A DNA stretch of 37,963 bases, taken from NCBI RefSeq assembly GCF_005405185.1, contig NZ_BJDO01000024.1:1-37963 (forward strand), given 5' to 3'. The DNA is from Secundilactobacillus hailunensis (GTDB lineage: Bacteria; Bacillota; Bacilli; Lactobacillales; Lactobacillaceae). A model generated the notes under the pieces. That model was not told where the DNA came from. It did not search any database and saw nothing but the letters and a program-made list of their open reading frames with translations. Of this stretch, positions 15,889-35,639 are shown piece after piece. A program made the position numbers and the translations under genes. Position 1 is the first letter of the stretch, and each line of letters begins with the position of its first letter.

Positions 15889-16416
15889 CTATACCGCACC
15901 CTGACTGCCACTCTTGAAACGCACGTGGGCCAAAATGGCATCCACAACTTCGACTGGTGTCAGATCATCCGTGTCAATTTCAATATCACTGACGCCATGA
16001 TACTTCGCATCCCGTTGTACTTTCAAACCCAGTAACCCGTCAGCACCCAGTTTTTTAACCAGTGGCCGCTGACCATCATCCGCTAACCGGGCCAGCACCG
16101 TTGCCGGTTGCACGTTGAGTAAAATCACTGGCACGTTACTTTTACGCAGCAGGTCATAGTTCGCCGTTTGAATGGGCGTGCCACCTCCCGTTGAGAGAAT
16201 CCCTTCGCTATGGCGCAAGGTATCTGCTAAAACATCGTGTTCCAACTGACGAAAGGCGGTTTCGCCATCATCGTCAAAAATTTGCTGAATCGTTTTGCCG
16301 GCACGTTCAACGATCACGTCATCTAAATCCCGGTGCGTGAGGTGCAGCCGGTCAGCCAATAACTCACCGACCGTGGTTTTACCGCTGCCCATGAAGCCCA
16401 CTAAAATTGCTCTCAT
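15889..16416 (-). CDS. aroK: shikimate kinase
   Basis: 175 residues. Phosphorylates shikimate with ATP, the fifth step of the chorismate pathway, in the cytosol. The P-loop GFMGSGKTT (7-15), substrate-binding D30-L-D32-D, R56 (GETAFRQLE) and the GGG at 77-79 are all present, and the length is usual. The ATG overlaps the tyrA stop (ATGA at 16416-16413) and is preceded by AGGAGGGG. Confidence 0.95.
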   Translation of the reverse strand: MRAILVGFMGSGKTTVGELLADRLHLTHRDLDDVIVERAGKTIQQIFDDDGETAFRQLEHDVLADTLRHSEGILSTGGGTPIQTANYDLLRKSNVPVILLNVQPATVLARLADDGQRPLVKKLGADGLLGLKVQRDAKYHGVSDIEIDTDDLTPVEVVDAILAHVRFKSGSQGAV

Positions 16417-17279
16417 TGTGTCTCCCCTCCTTGGTCTAATCGTTCTCGAACCGTCTTGGCGTGTTCAAAGAATTGGTAGATTTTATCCGTATCATGTGCT
16501 TCAATCGCACTTTGAATTTCTTTTAACTGTGTCATATAAGTTGTGAGCTGCTCACTAATTGCTTCAGAGTTGCTCAGCATGATTGCCGTCCACATCGTTG
16601 GATCGGCACCGGCAATTCGGGTGGTACTCTTGAACCCACCGGCAGCCGCACTGAGTCCTACTGCATCATGTTTTAATTGGTGATCCGCGGTATTGACAAG
16701 GTTAGCGGCTAACACGTGCGGGACGTGGCTAATTTCGCTGACGAGGCCATCGTGGGCTTCAGCCGATACATTGACCCACCGTAATTGGGCCGGCTTAAGG
16801 CAGGCTTTAAACTGGGCTGTTTGCGCTGGGGTTTGCGACCCGTTCACGATGAAGTAAGTCGCGTGATCAAACAGGTCTTCTCGGCCGGCCCGACCGCCCG
16901 TCTTGTGTGAGCCAGCCATGGGATGACCGCCCATAAACGCGATCTGGTGTTTTTGCAGCTGCTTTGCGGCTGTCATCACCTGCATTTTAGTACTGCCCAC
17001 ATCCGTCACTAGCACATTCGGTTTTAACACCACTGCTGCCAGTTGATTCAATTGGTCAATAATCACTGAAACCGGGCCAGCGAGAACGATGATATCAGCG
17101 CGCGAAGCTGCCTTTAACAGCGTCACCCGTTCATCAATGATCCCCTGACCCAGCAGAAACTGGCCCGTATCGTCATTGGGGTCGTCCCCCAAAATTGTCG
17201 GCTGCACCGAACTTTGTTTCATGATCCGCGCAATTGAGCTGCCAATTAGGCCTAACCCACTTATCAATACCGTTGTCAT
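16413..17279 (-). CDS. tyrA: prephenate dehydrogenase
   Basis: 288 residues. Oxidatively decarboxylates prephenate to 4-hydroxyphenylpyruvate, the tyrosine branch. The NAD-binding loop LISGLGLIGSS is at the start; GGHPMAGSHKTG and EISHVPH are family motifs. It lacks the C-terminal ACT domain of Bacillus TyrA and is of the shorter type, so Tyr feedback may be weak. The ATG at 17279 has GAGGTG upstream; a GTG 9 bp earlier is less likely because it overlaps that site. It is 13 bp after aroA. No prephenate dehydratase gene is in the operon. Confidence 0.93.
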   Translation of the reverse strand: MTTVLISGLGLIGSSIARIMKQSSVQPTILGDDPNDDTGQFLLGQGIIDERVTLLKAASRADIIVLAGPVSVIIDQLNQLAAVVLKPNVLVTDVGSTKMQVMTAAKQLQKHQIAFMGGHPMAGSHKTGGRAGREDLFDHATYFIVNGSQTPAQTAQFKACLKPAQLRWVNVSAEAHDGLVSEISHVPHVLAANLVNTADHQLKHDAVGLSAAAGGFKSTTRIAGADPTMWTAIMLSNSEAISEQLTTYMTQLKEIQSAIEAHDTDKIYQFFEHAKTVRERLDQGGETQ

Positions 17280-17292
17280 ACCGATCACCTCA

Positions 17293-18579
17293 TTACAATA
17301 ATTGGTCTAAATCATCGAAAAATTCAGGGTAGGAAATCCGAACGCTATCAGCACCCTTCAACTGTAAAGGCATCTCGACCAGCAAGGCTGCAATCCCTAA
17401 AACCATCCCAATTCGATGATCATCATGGGCATCTAACACGGAATCAACCACGTGCCAGGGCTGACGGCCATCAATCACAAAGCCGTCTGGTAACTCTTCG
17501 ATTGCAATCCCCAATTTTTTAAATTCCGTCACGATGGCGCTGATCCGGTCCGTTTCCTTGACCCTTAACTCTTCAGCACCAGTGATCCGGCTAATTCCGT
17601 TCGCTTTGGCTGCTAATAAGGCGACCAGTGGCAGTTCGTCAATCACTGCTGGAATCTGGTCCTTCCCGATAGTGATCGGCTTTAAATCAGCTGACTGAAT
17701 CGTTAGATCACCTAAAGGTTCTCCCGTGGTGGGTTCAGACTTAATTGAAACGTTGCCGCCCATGGCCTTTAAAATCTCCAATAACCCGGTCCGCGTCTGG
17801 TTGAGGCCGACATCCTTCAACGTGATTTTCGAACCTGACACCAGACTGGCTGCGGTCATGAAAAACGCCGCTGAAGACATATCACCGGGAACCGTCATCG
17901 ACTGACCCGTTAAGTGTGGCTGCGGTGCAACGGTAATCGTTACCCCATCCGTCGCCGTTTGAATGTCTCCGCCAAAGGCCGTTAACATCCGCTCCGTATG
18001 GTCTCTGGTGGGTAATTTTTCGATTAACGTCGTGGGGCCATCCGCTTGCAAGGCCGCTAAAATCAGCGCACTTTTGACTTGCGCGCTGGCAACCTTGAGC
18101 TGGTAATGAACGGCGTGTAATTTTTGCCCCGTCACCGTCACTGGTAAATGACCATCAGTGGTCGTCATCTTAGCGCCCATAGTGGCCAGCGGTTCACTGA
18201 CCCGGCGCATCGGCCGCGTTGAGAGGGAATCATCGCCAATTAACGTTGTTTTAAATGATTGACCCGCTAATAACCCCATTATCAGCCGGGTAGTGGTCCC
18301 AGAATTTCCCATATCAAGCGGTTCAGAACTCGATTTCAGGCCGTGCAGGCCAACACCGTGAACGGTAACGGTCGTGCCATTACGCTCAATCGGCACCCCC
18401 AGTTGCTGAAAGGCAGCCAAAGTCGACAGACAGTCCGCTGAAGTCAGAAAATGCGTCAGTGTAGTTGTTCCTTCACTGATAGCGCCTAACATAATGCCCC
18501 GGTGGGAGATGCTTTTATCGCCAGGCACGGTGAGTTCACCATGTAACCCCTGGGCTGGTTTAGTTTTAAGTGTTCTCAT
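17293..18579 (-). CDS. aroA: 3-phosphoshikimate 1-carboxyvinyltransferase (EPSP synthase)
   Basis: 428 residues from the ATG at 18579, which has AGAGGAAG just upstream; the frame extends 12 codons further into aroC without a ribosome binding site. Transfers the enolpyruvyl group of PEP to shikimate 3-phosphate. PGDKSISHR (19-27), GNSGTTTRL (91-99), RPMRR and LRVKETDR are conserved. The GNSGTT and RPMRR wording is closer to the Bacillus-type enzyme than to the E. coli type. It is 13 bp after the aroC stop. Confidence 0.95.
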   Translation of the reverse strand: MRTLKTKPAQGLHGELTVPGDKSISHRGIMLGAISEGTTTLTHFLTSADCLSTLAAFQQLGVPIERNGTTVTVHGVGLHGLKSSSEPLDMGNSGTTTRLIMGLLAGQSFKTTLIGDDSLSTRPMRRVSEPLATMGAKMTTTDGHLPVTVTGQKLHAVHYQLKVASAQVKSALILAALQADGPTTLIEKLPTRDHTERMLTAFGGDIQTATDGVTITVAPQPHLTGQSMTVPGDMSSAAFFMTAASLVSGSKITLKDVGLNQTRTGLLEILKAMGGNVSIKSEPTTGEPLGDLTIQSADLKPITIGKDQIPAVIDELPLVALLAAKANGISRITGAEELRVKETDRISAIVTEFKKLGIAIEELPDGFVIDGRQPWHVVDSVLDAHDDHRIGMVLGIAALLVEMPLQLKGADSVRISYPEFFDDLDQLL

Positions 18580-18592
18580 ATGCAATCTTCCT

Positions 18593-19759
18593 CTAGTAGT
18601 TTTTGAGTTCTTCACGGTAAGCCTTTAGCTGAGCCTTCAAACGATCCATGTTACTACCGTCGAAGGTGTCGGTGATTGCCTTAGCTAACTCAATAGCAAC
18701 CACGCTTTCGATTACGATGGAAGCCGGCACGATGGCTGTCGTGTCAGAGCGTTCAACGCTGGCCTTCTTAACTTCCTTAGTTTCAACGTCAACGCTTTGC
18801 AGTGGCTTGTACAACGTTGGGATGGGCTTCATCGCCGCCTTAACAATGATTGGCATCCCGTTAGTCATCCCACCTTCAAAACCGCCTAAATGATCCGACT
18901 CACGGGTGAAGCCTTCACCTGCATGCCAGTCGATTTCATCCATCACTTGACTGCCGAAACTAGTGGCGGCCTTGAAGCCATCACCGATTTCAACCCCCTT
19001 CATGGCATTGACACCCATGACGGCCGCGGCAATCTTACCATCTAATTTCGTATCCCAGCTGATGTAACTGCCCAAGCCAGCGGGCACGTTGGTGGCGACT
19101 ACCCGGACAATGCCGCCCAGTGTATCGCCATCCTTCTTTGTTTGATCGATCAGATTATGAATGGCTTCAACCTTATCGCCTTGAACCACCCGCAGATCAT
19201 TTTGGCTGATCAGCTGATTAATTTCATCTACATCCAATGGCGCTTGGTCATCCGCTGCTATTGAACCGATCTGCTGTACATAGCCCACAATATCAATACC
19301 TAACTGCTGCAATAGCTGTTTTGAAATGGCACCAATAGCCACCCGCATGGCAGTTTCCCGGGCACTTGAGCGTTCCAAAACGTTCCGTAGGTCGCGGTGA
19401 TTGTATTTCATCCCGCCAACCAGATCAGCATGCCCTGGTCGTGGCCGTTCAACTTTACGCAGGGAATTCTCCGCGGTTTCATCGGCGATTGGGTCCATGA
19501 TCTTACCCCAGTGGGCGTGATCACGGTTATTGACGACTAATGCAATCGGTGAACCCAGTGTTTTCTTGTGGCGAACACCACCGACAATGGTGACTTCATC
19601 ATGTTCGATTTTTTGCCGGCTGCCCCGACCGTAGCCGCCTTGGCGGGCTGCTAATTGCGCATTAATGGCATCAATGTCCAGTAGTAAGCCAGCCGGTAAG
19701 CCTTCAATGATCCCGGTGAGCTGCGGTCCGTGTGATTCGCCTGCAGTTAAGTAATTCAT
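18593..19759 (-). CDS. aroC: chorismate synthase
   Basis: 388 residues. Converts EPSP to chorismate with reduced FMN. The family signatures are present: GESHGPQLTGIIEGLPAG near the start, GGYGRGSRQKIEHDEV, RPGHADLVGGMKY, SSARETAMRVA and RSDTTAIVPA. The ATG has AGGGGAT upstream and lies 16 bp after the chorismate mutase stop. In Firmicutes the enzyme needs a separate NAD(P)H-dependent flavin reductase, and none is in this operon. Confidence 0.95.
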   Translation of the reverse strand: MNYLTAGESHGPQLTGIIEGLPAGLLLDIDAINAQLAARQGGYGRGSRQKIEHDEVTIVGGVRHKKTLGSPIALVVNNRDHAHWGKIMDPIADETAENSLRKVERPRPGHADLVGGMKYNHRDLRNVLERSSARETAMRVAIGAISKQLLQQLGIDIVGYVQQIGSIAADDQAPLDVDEINQLISQNDLRVVQGDKVEAIHNLIDQTKKDGDTLGGIVRVVATNVPAGLGSYISWDTKLDGKIAAAVMGVNAMKGVEIGDGFKAATSFGSQVMDEIDWHAGEGFTRESDHLGGFEGGMTNGMPIIVKAAMKPIPTLYKPLQSVDVETKEVKKASVERSDTTAIVPASIVIESVVAIELAKAITDTFDGSNMDRLKAQLKAYREELKNY

Positions 19760-19775: not shown

Positions 19776-20099
19776 TTAGTGAGTCCGTTTCATCTTCGTT
19801 AAGTAATCTTGGTAGTCTCTGGAGTTCTTCATGATGGTTGCAAAAATATGGCGCATATAGGCTCTGGTTTCCGGATTCGGATCGTTTCCCGTTACGCGGT
19901 CAAGCACCTGATCTTCCCGACCGTGATCCATAATTGGCAAGTTGGCTGTCTTTTTAGCTTCATTCACCTTCGTCACCGCTTCAAACCGTTGGGCTAAAAG
20001 CGTGACGAGCTGATCATCAATATCATTGATCTGCTGCCGGGCAGCCGTTAATTCGTTGGGTTGCCACGCACCTGTTGCATTATCCTTTGTTTCCATCAT
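19776..20099 (-). CDS. chorismate mutase (AroQ-class, monofunctional)
   Basis: 107 residues, all helical, with the AroQ pattern: LTAARQQINDIDDQLVTLLAQRFEAVTKVNEAKK (about 18-51), REDQVLDRV and the C-terminal helix IFATIMKNSRDYQ. It rearranges chorismate to prephenate, the branch point toward Tyr and Phe. The ATG at 20099 has AAGGAG 8 nt upstream; a second ATG follows directly. As the first gene of the operon behind a leader terminator, it and everything downstream would be subject to attenuation. Its product feeds tyrA in the same operon. Confidence 0.9.
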   Translation of the reverse strand: MMETKDNATGAWQPNELTAARQQINDIDDQLVTLLAQRFEAVTKVNEAKKTANLPIMDHGREDQVLDRVTGNDPNPETRAYMRHIFATIMKNSRDYQDYLTKMKRTH

Positions 20100-20125
20100 T
20101 TAAATCACTCCTTATTTGTGGTACG

Positions 20126-20157
20126 AAAAAAGCCAGCTAGACGATCTAGCTGGCTTT
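20126..20157 (-). terminator. attenuator terminator in front of the chorismate mutase gene
   Basis: Perfect 13-bp stem (AAAGCCAGCTAGA 20157-20145 with TCTAGCTGGCTTT 20141-20129 on the minus strand), 3-nt loop, followed by T to 20126. It lies 27 bp upstream of the start codon and after the promoter, so it terminates in the leader and not at an operon end. Confidence 0.92.
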
Positions 20158-20281
20158 CATTATTCCCTTTACGGAATCAACGTAGTCCAGCTAGAAACTT
20201 CACGTCTAGCTGGCACGACAAATTGACGGCTTGCTTTAGACGCGAACGCGATTTTGGCGTCCGCATTTAAAGTTGCGGACG

Positions 20282-20344
20282 CTAACTAAAGTAATAACCG
20301 TACCAATACGCATTAACTTGAGCTAACTGTGTCTTCATTGTCAT
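20282..20344 (-). CDS. aromatic-rich leader peptide of the aro operon
   Basis: A 20-codon frame reads MTMKTQLAQVNAYWYGYYFS and then TAG. Six of the last eight residues are aromatic: four Tyr, one Trp, one Phe. AGAAGGGA lies just upstream of the first ATG (spacing 4-5 nt) and at 10 nt from the in-frame ATG at 20338, so either start is possible. It begins about 20 nt after the predicted transcription start, and hairpin 1 starts at its stop codon. The composition matches the end products of the operon it precedes, which is the hallmark of a control peptide for ribosome-mediated attenuation. Confidence 0.82.
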   Translation of the reverse strand: MTMKTQLAQVNAYWYGYYFS

Positions 20345-20371
20345 TGATCCCTTCTCATTTAGATTGTTTTC

Positions 20372-20400
20372 ATTAAAACATATTGAGAAATTTTAGTCAA
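20372..20400 (-). promoter_or_regulatory. promoter of the aro operon
   Basis: On the minus strand TTGACT (20400-20395), 17-nt spacer, TTTAAT (20377-20372). The start site would be near 20365, giving a leader of about 265 nt. It lies only 48 bp beyond the folP stop. Confidence 0.65.
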
Positions 20401-35439: not shown

Positions 35440-35603
35440 TAGAATAAGCCGTTAGGTGAGGCTCCTATACTGAAAACGCTACTGCTCAGAAACGTCGAAA
35501 AACGCCAATGAGTCAGCTGTCCGAGTTAAAAAAAGGCTCGGTCTAATGTGGCTGTTATCCATTAACTACGCCGTATAGTGCTAAAGCTCAACGATTGGCG
35601 AAA
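35440..35603 (+). promoter_or_regulatory. M-box (ykoK leader) magnesium riboswitch
   Basis: The conserved blocks of the M-box are in order: GTTAGGTGAGGCTCCTATA (35451-35469), AAACGCTACTGCTCAGAAACGTCGAAAAACGCCAATGAGTCAGC in the middle, the variable stem CCGAG...CTCGG (35521-35541), and GCCGTATAGTGCTAAAGCTCAACGATTG (35570-35597). M-box RNA binds Mg2+ and, in Gram-positives, usually switches a terminator on at high Mg2+ in front of mgtE, corA or other Mg transporters. A promoter and a terminator flank it properly. The match is by recall of the family; covariance search was not possible. Confidence 0.88.
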
Positions 35604-35639
35604 CGACCTGTATGGGTCATTTAAGTGTGCAAATTAGTG

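Follow-up and report, generated by a model that had tools for sequence, protein, structure and literature searches.

Lactic acid bacteria are generally taken to sense amino acid supply through T-boxes. The T-box riboswitch (RF00230) acts before the same kinds of genes as the leader described here, but it binds tRNA directly and needs no translation, and it has no match at this leader. In the enteric attenuators (trp, phe and his leaders) a stalled ribosome is the sensor, and the RNA combines a leader peptide, control codons, a hairpin adjacent to the stop codon and a mutually exclusive terminator and antiterminator. Our leader shares all these parts, but whereas the enteric attenuators have four segments, it consists of seven alternative pairings over about 130 nt, and one RNA serves different amino acids; sequence kinship to enteric leaders was covered by Rfam scans only. 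To our knowledge, the leader-peptide attenuators known in Firmicutes are single cases: the ilv operon of L. monocytogenes reportedly exemplifies this kind of attenuation of an amino acid operon in Bacilli, and an older Lactococcus ilv leader is also said to be a leader-peptide attenuator. The ilv-leu attenuator peptide of S. aureus likewise controls an amino acid operon in Bacilli, but, as far as the accessible text goes, it concerns one operon in staphylococci, the terminator stem stays intact, a motif released by an upstream stem pairs with its poly-U, and there is no relay (PMC5794164). The His leader peptides of hisZ/hisS* in bacilli resemble the present case in replacing T-boxes in Firmicutes, but they are confined to histidine, and the available portion of that report mentions no conserved relay RNA of this kind (PMC2965389); S. 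suis trpX, according to a source available in part, uses a T-box (PMC9382623). A relay attenuator is not described in the literature searched, in which subscription journals were little covered and which included the accessible parts of PMC2494555, PMC7724050, PMC7994832 and PMC10117718.

The leader that served as the starting point lies in a 37,963-nucleotide stretch of Secundilactobacillus hailunensis DNA (contig NZ_BJDO01000024.1, called the window below), on the minus strand between the dihydropteroate synthase gene and the chorismate mutase gene. Its elements and the operon behind it are as follows, with the kind of evidence in brackets.

20372..20400, minus strand: sigma-A type promoter TTGACT-17-TTTAAT, with -35 TTGACT at 20400-20395, 17 nt and -10 TTTAAT at 20377-20372 (sequence)
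20348..20353, minus strand: Shine-Dalgarno AAGGGA of the leader ORF (sequence and comparison with relatives)
20282..20338, minus strand: leader ORF, MKTQLAQVNAYWYGYYFS and stop, control codons Tyr/Trp/Phe (kept in 52 of 52 aro-set loci)
20286..20299, minus strand: segment X, codons before the stop, partner Y (coevolution)
20282-20257, minus strand: first hairpin (sequence)
20274..20282, minus strand: segment A, 5' arm of the first hairpin, beginning at the stop codon, partner B (coevolution)
20257..20265, minus strand: segment B, partner A or C (coevolution)
20237..20250, minus strand: segment C, partner B (5' part) or D (3' part) (coevolution)
20228..20239, minus strand: segment Y, partner X, overlapping the 3' end of C (coevolution)
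20213-20187, minus strand: second hairpin (sequence)
20201..20213, minus strand: segment D, partner C or E (coevolution)
20187..20195, minus strand: segment E, partner D or, as antiterminator, F (coevolution)
20145..20156, minus strand: segment F, terminator 5' arm, partner E or G (coevolution)
20126..20141, minus strand: segment G, terminator 3' arm and T run (sequence and coevolution)
19776..20099, minus strand: chorismate mutase, first gene of the operon (TIGR01805, just over its cut-off)
18593..19759, minus strand: aroC, chorismate synthase (TIGR00033, over cut-off)
17293..18615, minus strand: aroA, EPSP synthase (TIGR01356, over cut-off)
16413..17288, minus strand: tyrA, prephenate dehydrogenase (prephenate dehydrogenase models with strong E-values, under their own cut-offs)
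15889..16416, minus strand: aroK, shikimate kinase (shikimate kinase models with strong E-values, under their own cut-offs)

The promoter, the ribosome binding site, the aromatic-rich frame, the two hairpins and the 13-bp terminator before chorismate mutase that the original prediction had listed are all present in the sequence. The terminator is perfect (arms AAAGCCAGCTAGA/TCTAGCTGGCTTT), its T run extends to 20126, leaving 26 nt to the start codon of chorismate mutase (ATG at 20099), and the 9-nt arms that it was said to share with the second hairpin are indeed identical. The leader is far more stable than shuffled sequences (z -5.35, 0/200), and a similar TTGAC / TTTAAT pair can be seen by eye upstream in most aro-type relatives; a simple promoter and terminator scan of the window listed neither the leader promoter nor the leader terminator. 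The ORF had been predicted to comprise 20 codons, a length that does not hold. The first ATG is absent in one relative (L006) and out of frame in another (L010), and the Shine-Dalgarno spacing of the relatives fits the second ATG (20338), which is the most likely start and gives 18 codons. The encoded peptide ends in YWYGYYFS, followed by the stop codon at 20284-20282. Elsewhere in the window, an M-box (magnesium) riboswitch lies on the plus strand at 35441-35606 (120.5 bits), and a 5S rRNA is cut off at the contig end (37865-37963).

Relatives of the leader were collected in several ways. A blastn search with the window leader found it in 44 of 397 genomes of the family, in 9 of 40 genera, and a pattern scan of named genomes returned 33 stretches from Secundilactobacillus, Lentilactobacillus, Lactiplantibacillus (including L. 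plantarum), Loigolactobacillus, Liquorilactobacillus and Bombilactobacillus; a fixed-loop pattern for the first hairpin, run on the 397 genomes, had the wrong loop length, missed the window itself, gave only noise and was discarded. The resulting aro set comprises 52 leaders, 47 from the blastn search (the window's included) and five new ones from the pattern scan, and the first gene after them encodes chorismate mutase, an MFS transporter, AroA or AroE. A covariance model of segments X to E (R1) matched in 79 of 395 Lactobacillales genomes at E<=0.001. A second model (R2), built from 59 diverse members, matched in 247 of these 395 genomes at E<=0.01; single genomes contained as many as five matches, and 62 of the 80 sampled genera were represented. 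Only a sample of the loci in these 247 genomes was inspected, and the weakest matches were not among them. At the level of the class, R2 matched in 35 of 388 genomes, five of them outside Lactobacillales. The ten loci retrieved from these five genomes all have aromatic leaders, placed before genes for transketolase, an aminotransferase, an MFS-chorismate mutase fusion, DAHP synthase, prephenate dehydratase and a TrpX-like protein. Together with the 52 aro-set loci, 60 R1 and 60 R2 loci from Lactobacillales and these ten form a table of 182 loci, which includes a few of the same or near-identical species. Two genomes with Lentilactobacillus-type leaders (G335 with L064 and L087, G363 with L068 and L083) carry the leader twice on a single contig, before an MFS gene and, at a distance of 6 to 9 kb, before chorismate mutase.

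In the aro set the leader ORF is 17 to 22 codons long, and 5 to 7 of its last 12 residues are aromatic. As the choice of ORF in this set favoured the frame with most aromatics, the constant position of the stop codon beside helix A, together with a shuffle control, provides the better evidence: when the RNA model sets the position of the stop, 59 of 60 later-set loci have an ORF that starts with ATG and ends in aromatic or aliphatic residues, vs 38 of 1200 shuffled upstream sequences. The Shine-Dalgarno sequence was judged across loci by a simple motif only. Overall, 181 of the 182 loci have a leader ORF. The stop codon lies 9 nt further in L202, L215, L217, L219, L226, L237, L239 and L252, where the peptide ends in FRNCL, FRCCL and the like and the ORF enters helix A, a variant of the usual geometry. 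L151 keeps the RNA but has no ATG-started leader ORF that could be found; an aromatic frame without ATG is visible by eye, and the ORF has perhaps decayed.

The control codons follow the downstream gene. An aromatic leader precedes an aromatic-type gene in 151 loci and an aliphatic leader a branched-chain gene in 17, 13 loci are unclear and one has no ORF, so that the codon class fits the gene in all 168 classifiable loci. The aromatic leaders precede a TrpX-family binding protein (77), an MFS or MFS-chorismate mutase protein (38), chorismate mutase (16), aroE (10), prephenate dehydratase (4), DAHP synthase (3), and aroA, aroC and an aminotransferase (one each); without the 38 MFS-type loci, of unknown substrate, and the aminotransferase, 112 aromatic matches remain. 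Sixteen aliphatic leaders stand before threonine ammonia-lyase, acetolactate synthase, a branched-chain aminotransferase or a branched-chain binding protein. The seventeenth, L205, appeared as a mismatch through an artefact of the ATG-only rule, as a GTG-started frame there ends in TQLLLNIIISIIR and the stop codon before ilvA. The 17 are spread over nine genera, and the association between codon class and gene, calculated before the L205 correction on loci that are not independent, has a Fisher p of 2e-21. Gene classes were assigned by BLAST to representatives, most of them named by HMM; L075, L211, L056, L061, L135, L158, L166, L205 and L213 were checked against the HMM-named protein or its homologue, and the TrpX assignment is based on NF041285 below its cut-off and Pfam ABC_sub_bind. 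A chorismate mutase domain is fused to 20 of the 38 MFS proteins (BLAST, whole table), and three of the other 18 are short, apparently broken frames. From this fusion we assume that the MFS proteins, whose substrate is unknown, handle an aromatic or related compound. MFS proteins with a C-terminal chorismate mutase domain occur at L107:4229-5677 (minus), L273:974-2431 (plus), L011-L013 and L060, with PF07690 and PF01817 detected in L107 and L273; the L107 protein has no NCBIfam match at E 1e-20. The 13 loci without a settled codon link include three before a DASS transporter, one before a D-2-hydroxyacid dehydrogenase, one before transketolase and several others. Leaders before DASS-type anion symporters, a D-lactate dehydrogenase-like gene, a member of the Na+/H+ antiporter family and a POT peptide transporter were noted at L171, L176, L227, L187, L153 and L151; roles of these genes in aromatic uptake or in keto or hydroxy acid metabolism are possible.

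Which amino acids are read can be narrowed by the same comparison. Attenuation by charging of Tyr, Phe and Trp tRNAs had been proposed, and the alignment of leaders from relatives, in which the ORF with its aromatic end is conserved and the stems covary, supports this in general, the regulation itself remaining inferred; Trp is not needed as a signal. Many leaders have no Trp at all, which rules it out as the only signal, and since L056, L057 and many others do without it, the sequences support Tyr and Phe as the putative sensed amino acids, with Trp not essential. Stems kept where aromatic codons are lost would have counted against the proposal; the opposite is seen, in that a change from aromatic to Ile/Leu/Val codons accompanies a change of the downstream gene.

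An alignment of 51 leaders shows nine segments that can form a chain of mutually exclusive pairings, X:Y, A:B, B:C, C:D, D:E, E:F and F:G. We compared the duplex energies of cognate and shuffled partners across 41 genus-by-gene clades (40 for E:F and F:G) and obtained z values of -11.8 for X:Y, -11.7 for A:B, -6.5 for B:C, -9.0 for C:D, -10.7 for D:E, -9.6 for E:F and -18.2 for F:G. For X:Y the cognate partner was better in 41 of 41 clades; in the wider set, for example, X reads TTAGC or ACAGC and Y reads GCTAA or GCTGT. All seven pairings hold separately inside the aro group (19 clades) and in the rest (21 or 22), with p 0.0031 or less. In a first aro-only test, which comprised 12 clades, B:C missed significance (p 0.056); X:Y, weak in the aro set when only a short segment was compared (p 0.02), became strong once the segment was extended. 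Alignment cells in which both partners changed also exceeded the shuffle mean for every pairing in 50 leaders: 25 vs 8.9 for A:B, 16 vs 5.0 for B:C, 15 vs 4.9 for C:D, 3 vs 0.4 for D:E, 5 vs 1.0 for E:F, 33 vs 10.1 for F:G and 9 vs 3.7 for X:Y. The number of pairs with change on both sides, in the same 50 leaders, was not above shuffles for C:D and X:Y. In 29 diverse leaders, both exclusive sets exceeded shuffles (0/500) in pairing, double-change cells and covariation score, while further pair types for A:B plus C:D did not (284/500). Across 59 leaders there were 143 double-change cells vs 38 shuffled for A:B plus C:D, in an alignment fitted to that set, and 86 vs 35 for B:C plus D:E, to which it was not fitted. 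A simple finder located an intrinsic terminator before the first gene in 85 of 86 cases, without a shuffle control; of 60 further leaders, 56 have a hairpin with a T run downstream of E, vs 3 of 60 shuffled. In one Lentilactobacillus-type leader (L078, genome G238) an ISL3-type transposase gene follows segment E at the expected place of the terminator, which seems to have been displaced by insertion. Many relatives have, by eye, a small hairpin-like stretch (CAAAG...CUUUG) and a GUCRU motif between Y and D (20214-20233 in the window); except for the part that overlaps Y, it has no role in the relay described here.

A ribosome-mediated attenuator is expected to have a Shine-Dalgarno sequence and short ORF upstream of the operon, control codons matching the operon's amino acid, an intrinsic terminator before the first gene, and a mutually exclusive terminator and antiterminator. 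The first three are present, and the fourth is met by the coevolution of both sets; equilibrium folds alone lack the terminator. The antiterminator that the original prediction held possible is supported, since E:F and F:G both coevolve, and the extra relay pairing that it suspected, 20238-20244 with 20201-20207, is real and conserved: it is helix C:D, the key link. A simple two-hairpin switch, already recognised as incomplete, can be dismissed, as D:E and F:G alone do not connect the ribosome to the terminator. B:C and X:Y are the links that such a switch lacks, and they explain how a stalled ribosome can select the antiterminator. We thus consider it highly probable that the leader is a transcription attenuator governed by the ribosome, in which mutually exclusive helices form a relay. 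The conserved ORF, the match of codons to operon, the coevolution of every pairing and the terminator are observed; that the leader regulates, with charging as the signal, the timing and a third state without translation, is inferred. When charged Tyr and Phe tRNAs are scarce, a ribosome would stall on the control codons, covering X but not A; A:B would form, leaving C free for C:D, the E:F antiterminator would follow, and polymerase would enter the aro operon. With the tRNAs charged, the ribosome would reach the stop codon and cover both X and A, leading to B:C, D:E and the F:G terminator. If the leader were not translated, X:Y plus A:B would keep C and Y off D, again favouring D:E and termination.

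Folding with and without a ribosome footprint, as the original prediction had suggested, agrees with this scheme in trend only. The footprint was assumed to begin at the first base of the A-site codon and to span 13 nt, so that a ribosome with its A site at codons -8 to -5 masks X partly or wholly and leaves A free, and one at the stop codon covers X and A. For the window leader (folded as L045, identical over this stretch) cut at the end of E, a ribosome at the stop codon, -1 or -2 gives D:E at 0.99, and one at -4 to -8 gives C:D at 0.94-0.98. Among 54 leaders folded to the end of F, E:F exceeds 0.4 in 12 without ribosome, 27-37 with the ribosome stalled at -8 to -5, 16 at -1 and 23 at the stop; the corresponding counts for C:D are 8, 27 to 37, 1 and 1. 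With A:B forced, as in the stalled state, E:F is above 0.5 in 39 of 50 aro leaders. With the ribosome at the stop codon, all 50 have D:E above 0.5 when folded to the end of E; when folded to the end of F, only 32 of 50 do, and E:F is above 0.5 in 18. In the window leader, E:F is about 1.0 at the end of F for all ribosome positions, and in its full-length equilibrium fold the terminator is never favoured: D:G with nested E:F wins, and F:G stays at 0.00-0.11 at every ribosome position tried. Given this absence of the terminator from equilibrium folds, the logic needs co-transcriptional kinetics. Without a ribosome, the window leader has C:D at 0.91 at the end of E, counter to termination in the absence of translation; this third state is the weakest claim, backed only by the modelled average over leaders.

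Other readings of the same RNA have to be weighed. One catalogued family overlaps it: RF02863, Enterococcus sRNA_2410, matches three of 20 wider loci (L245, L214 and L157; 212 bits in L245), begins at X and has X:Y, A:B and D:E in its consensus, and is thus a homologous RNA; it has no match at the window leader at gathering or at E up to 5. This family is typed in Rfam as gene/sRNA, annotated without a mechanism, and its RNA was detected as a 195-nt species by RNA-seq and as two transcripts in Northern blots (PMC5593968, available in part), all of which would suit a stand-alone, trans-acting small RNA ended by the terminator. We regard that as most unlikely, because a plain sRNA needs neither a translated ORF nor an antiterminator, and 168 of the 182 loci precede an amino acid gene matched by their codons. 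Neither 'attenuat' nor 'leader' occurs in the main text of PMC5593968, as far as it is accessible, and the Rfam model covers little of the leader ORF and, for L245, stops short of the terminator. The Enterococcus RNA, the only experimental trace of the family, is not simply the terminated transcript, as it starts at X inside the ORF and the L245 match ends just before the terminator hairpin.

A riboswitch that binds tRNA or a metabolite, with the short ORF incidental, might be considered for a highly structured RNA in a genome rich in T-boxes (40 matches, 11 over the cut-off), but none of the 40 lies on this contig. Neither a T-box nor any other Rfam family reaches its gathering score at the window leader, where E up to 5 yields eight matches, all far under their gathering scores, and the 19 aro-type loci scanned likewise have none over it. 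As the reading frame and its codons are conserved and track the downstream gene, this reading can hardly be maintained. Strongly conserved C-terminal residues, with Phe at codon -2 in 113 of 137 and Arg at codon -1 in 112 of 137, could also point to an arrest peptide, in which the emerging chain (YYFG..YF, closing with Arg or Ser) would stall the ribosome on binding free Tyr or Phe and not through slow decoding for lack of charged tRNA, much as TnaC reportedly does with Trp. The control positions, however, swap among Tyr, Phe and Trp, and to Ile/Leu/Val along with the gene, and the conserved codons near the stop lie in X, where X:Y pairing can account for them, for example GGC with AGCC (by eye). 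We judge an arrest peptide improbable and retain slow decoding of control codons, read out by the relay, as the preferred explanation.

The system is thus a new variant of ribosome-mediated attenuation, with regulation inferred, and larger than the original prediction suggested: a modular, codon-tuned family of an order and some relatives. On balance, we are inclined to think that in Lactobacillales and some other Bacilli a single conserved RNA relay serves as a general sensor of amino acids that is read by the ribosome. It would be retuned beside the T-box by swaps of a few codons (Tyr, Phe, Ile, Leu/Val) and act as a band-pass switch, opening only when the ribosome pauses within one interval, with short RNAs such as Enterococcus sRNA_2410 derived from it. 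A second, translation-read sensor of this breadth, placed upstream of aro, phe, ilv and transporter genes and able to change its amino acid by codon change, would give a new annotation to many leaders so far unexplained and to at least one sRNA already catalogued. Two questions become testable: what determines whether a lineage places a given gene under a T-box or under a peptide leader, and how the position of a ribosome is conveyed along an extended RNA relay to a far terminator. The relay leader also lends itself naturally, as a modular part, to amino-acid-responsive control in food-grade strains.
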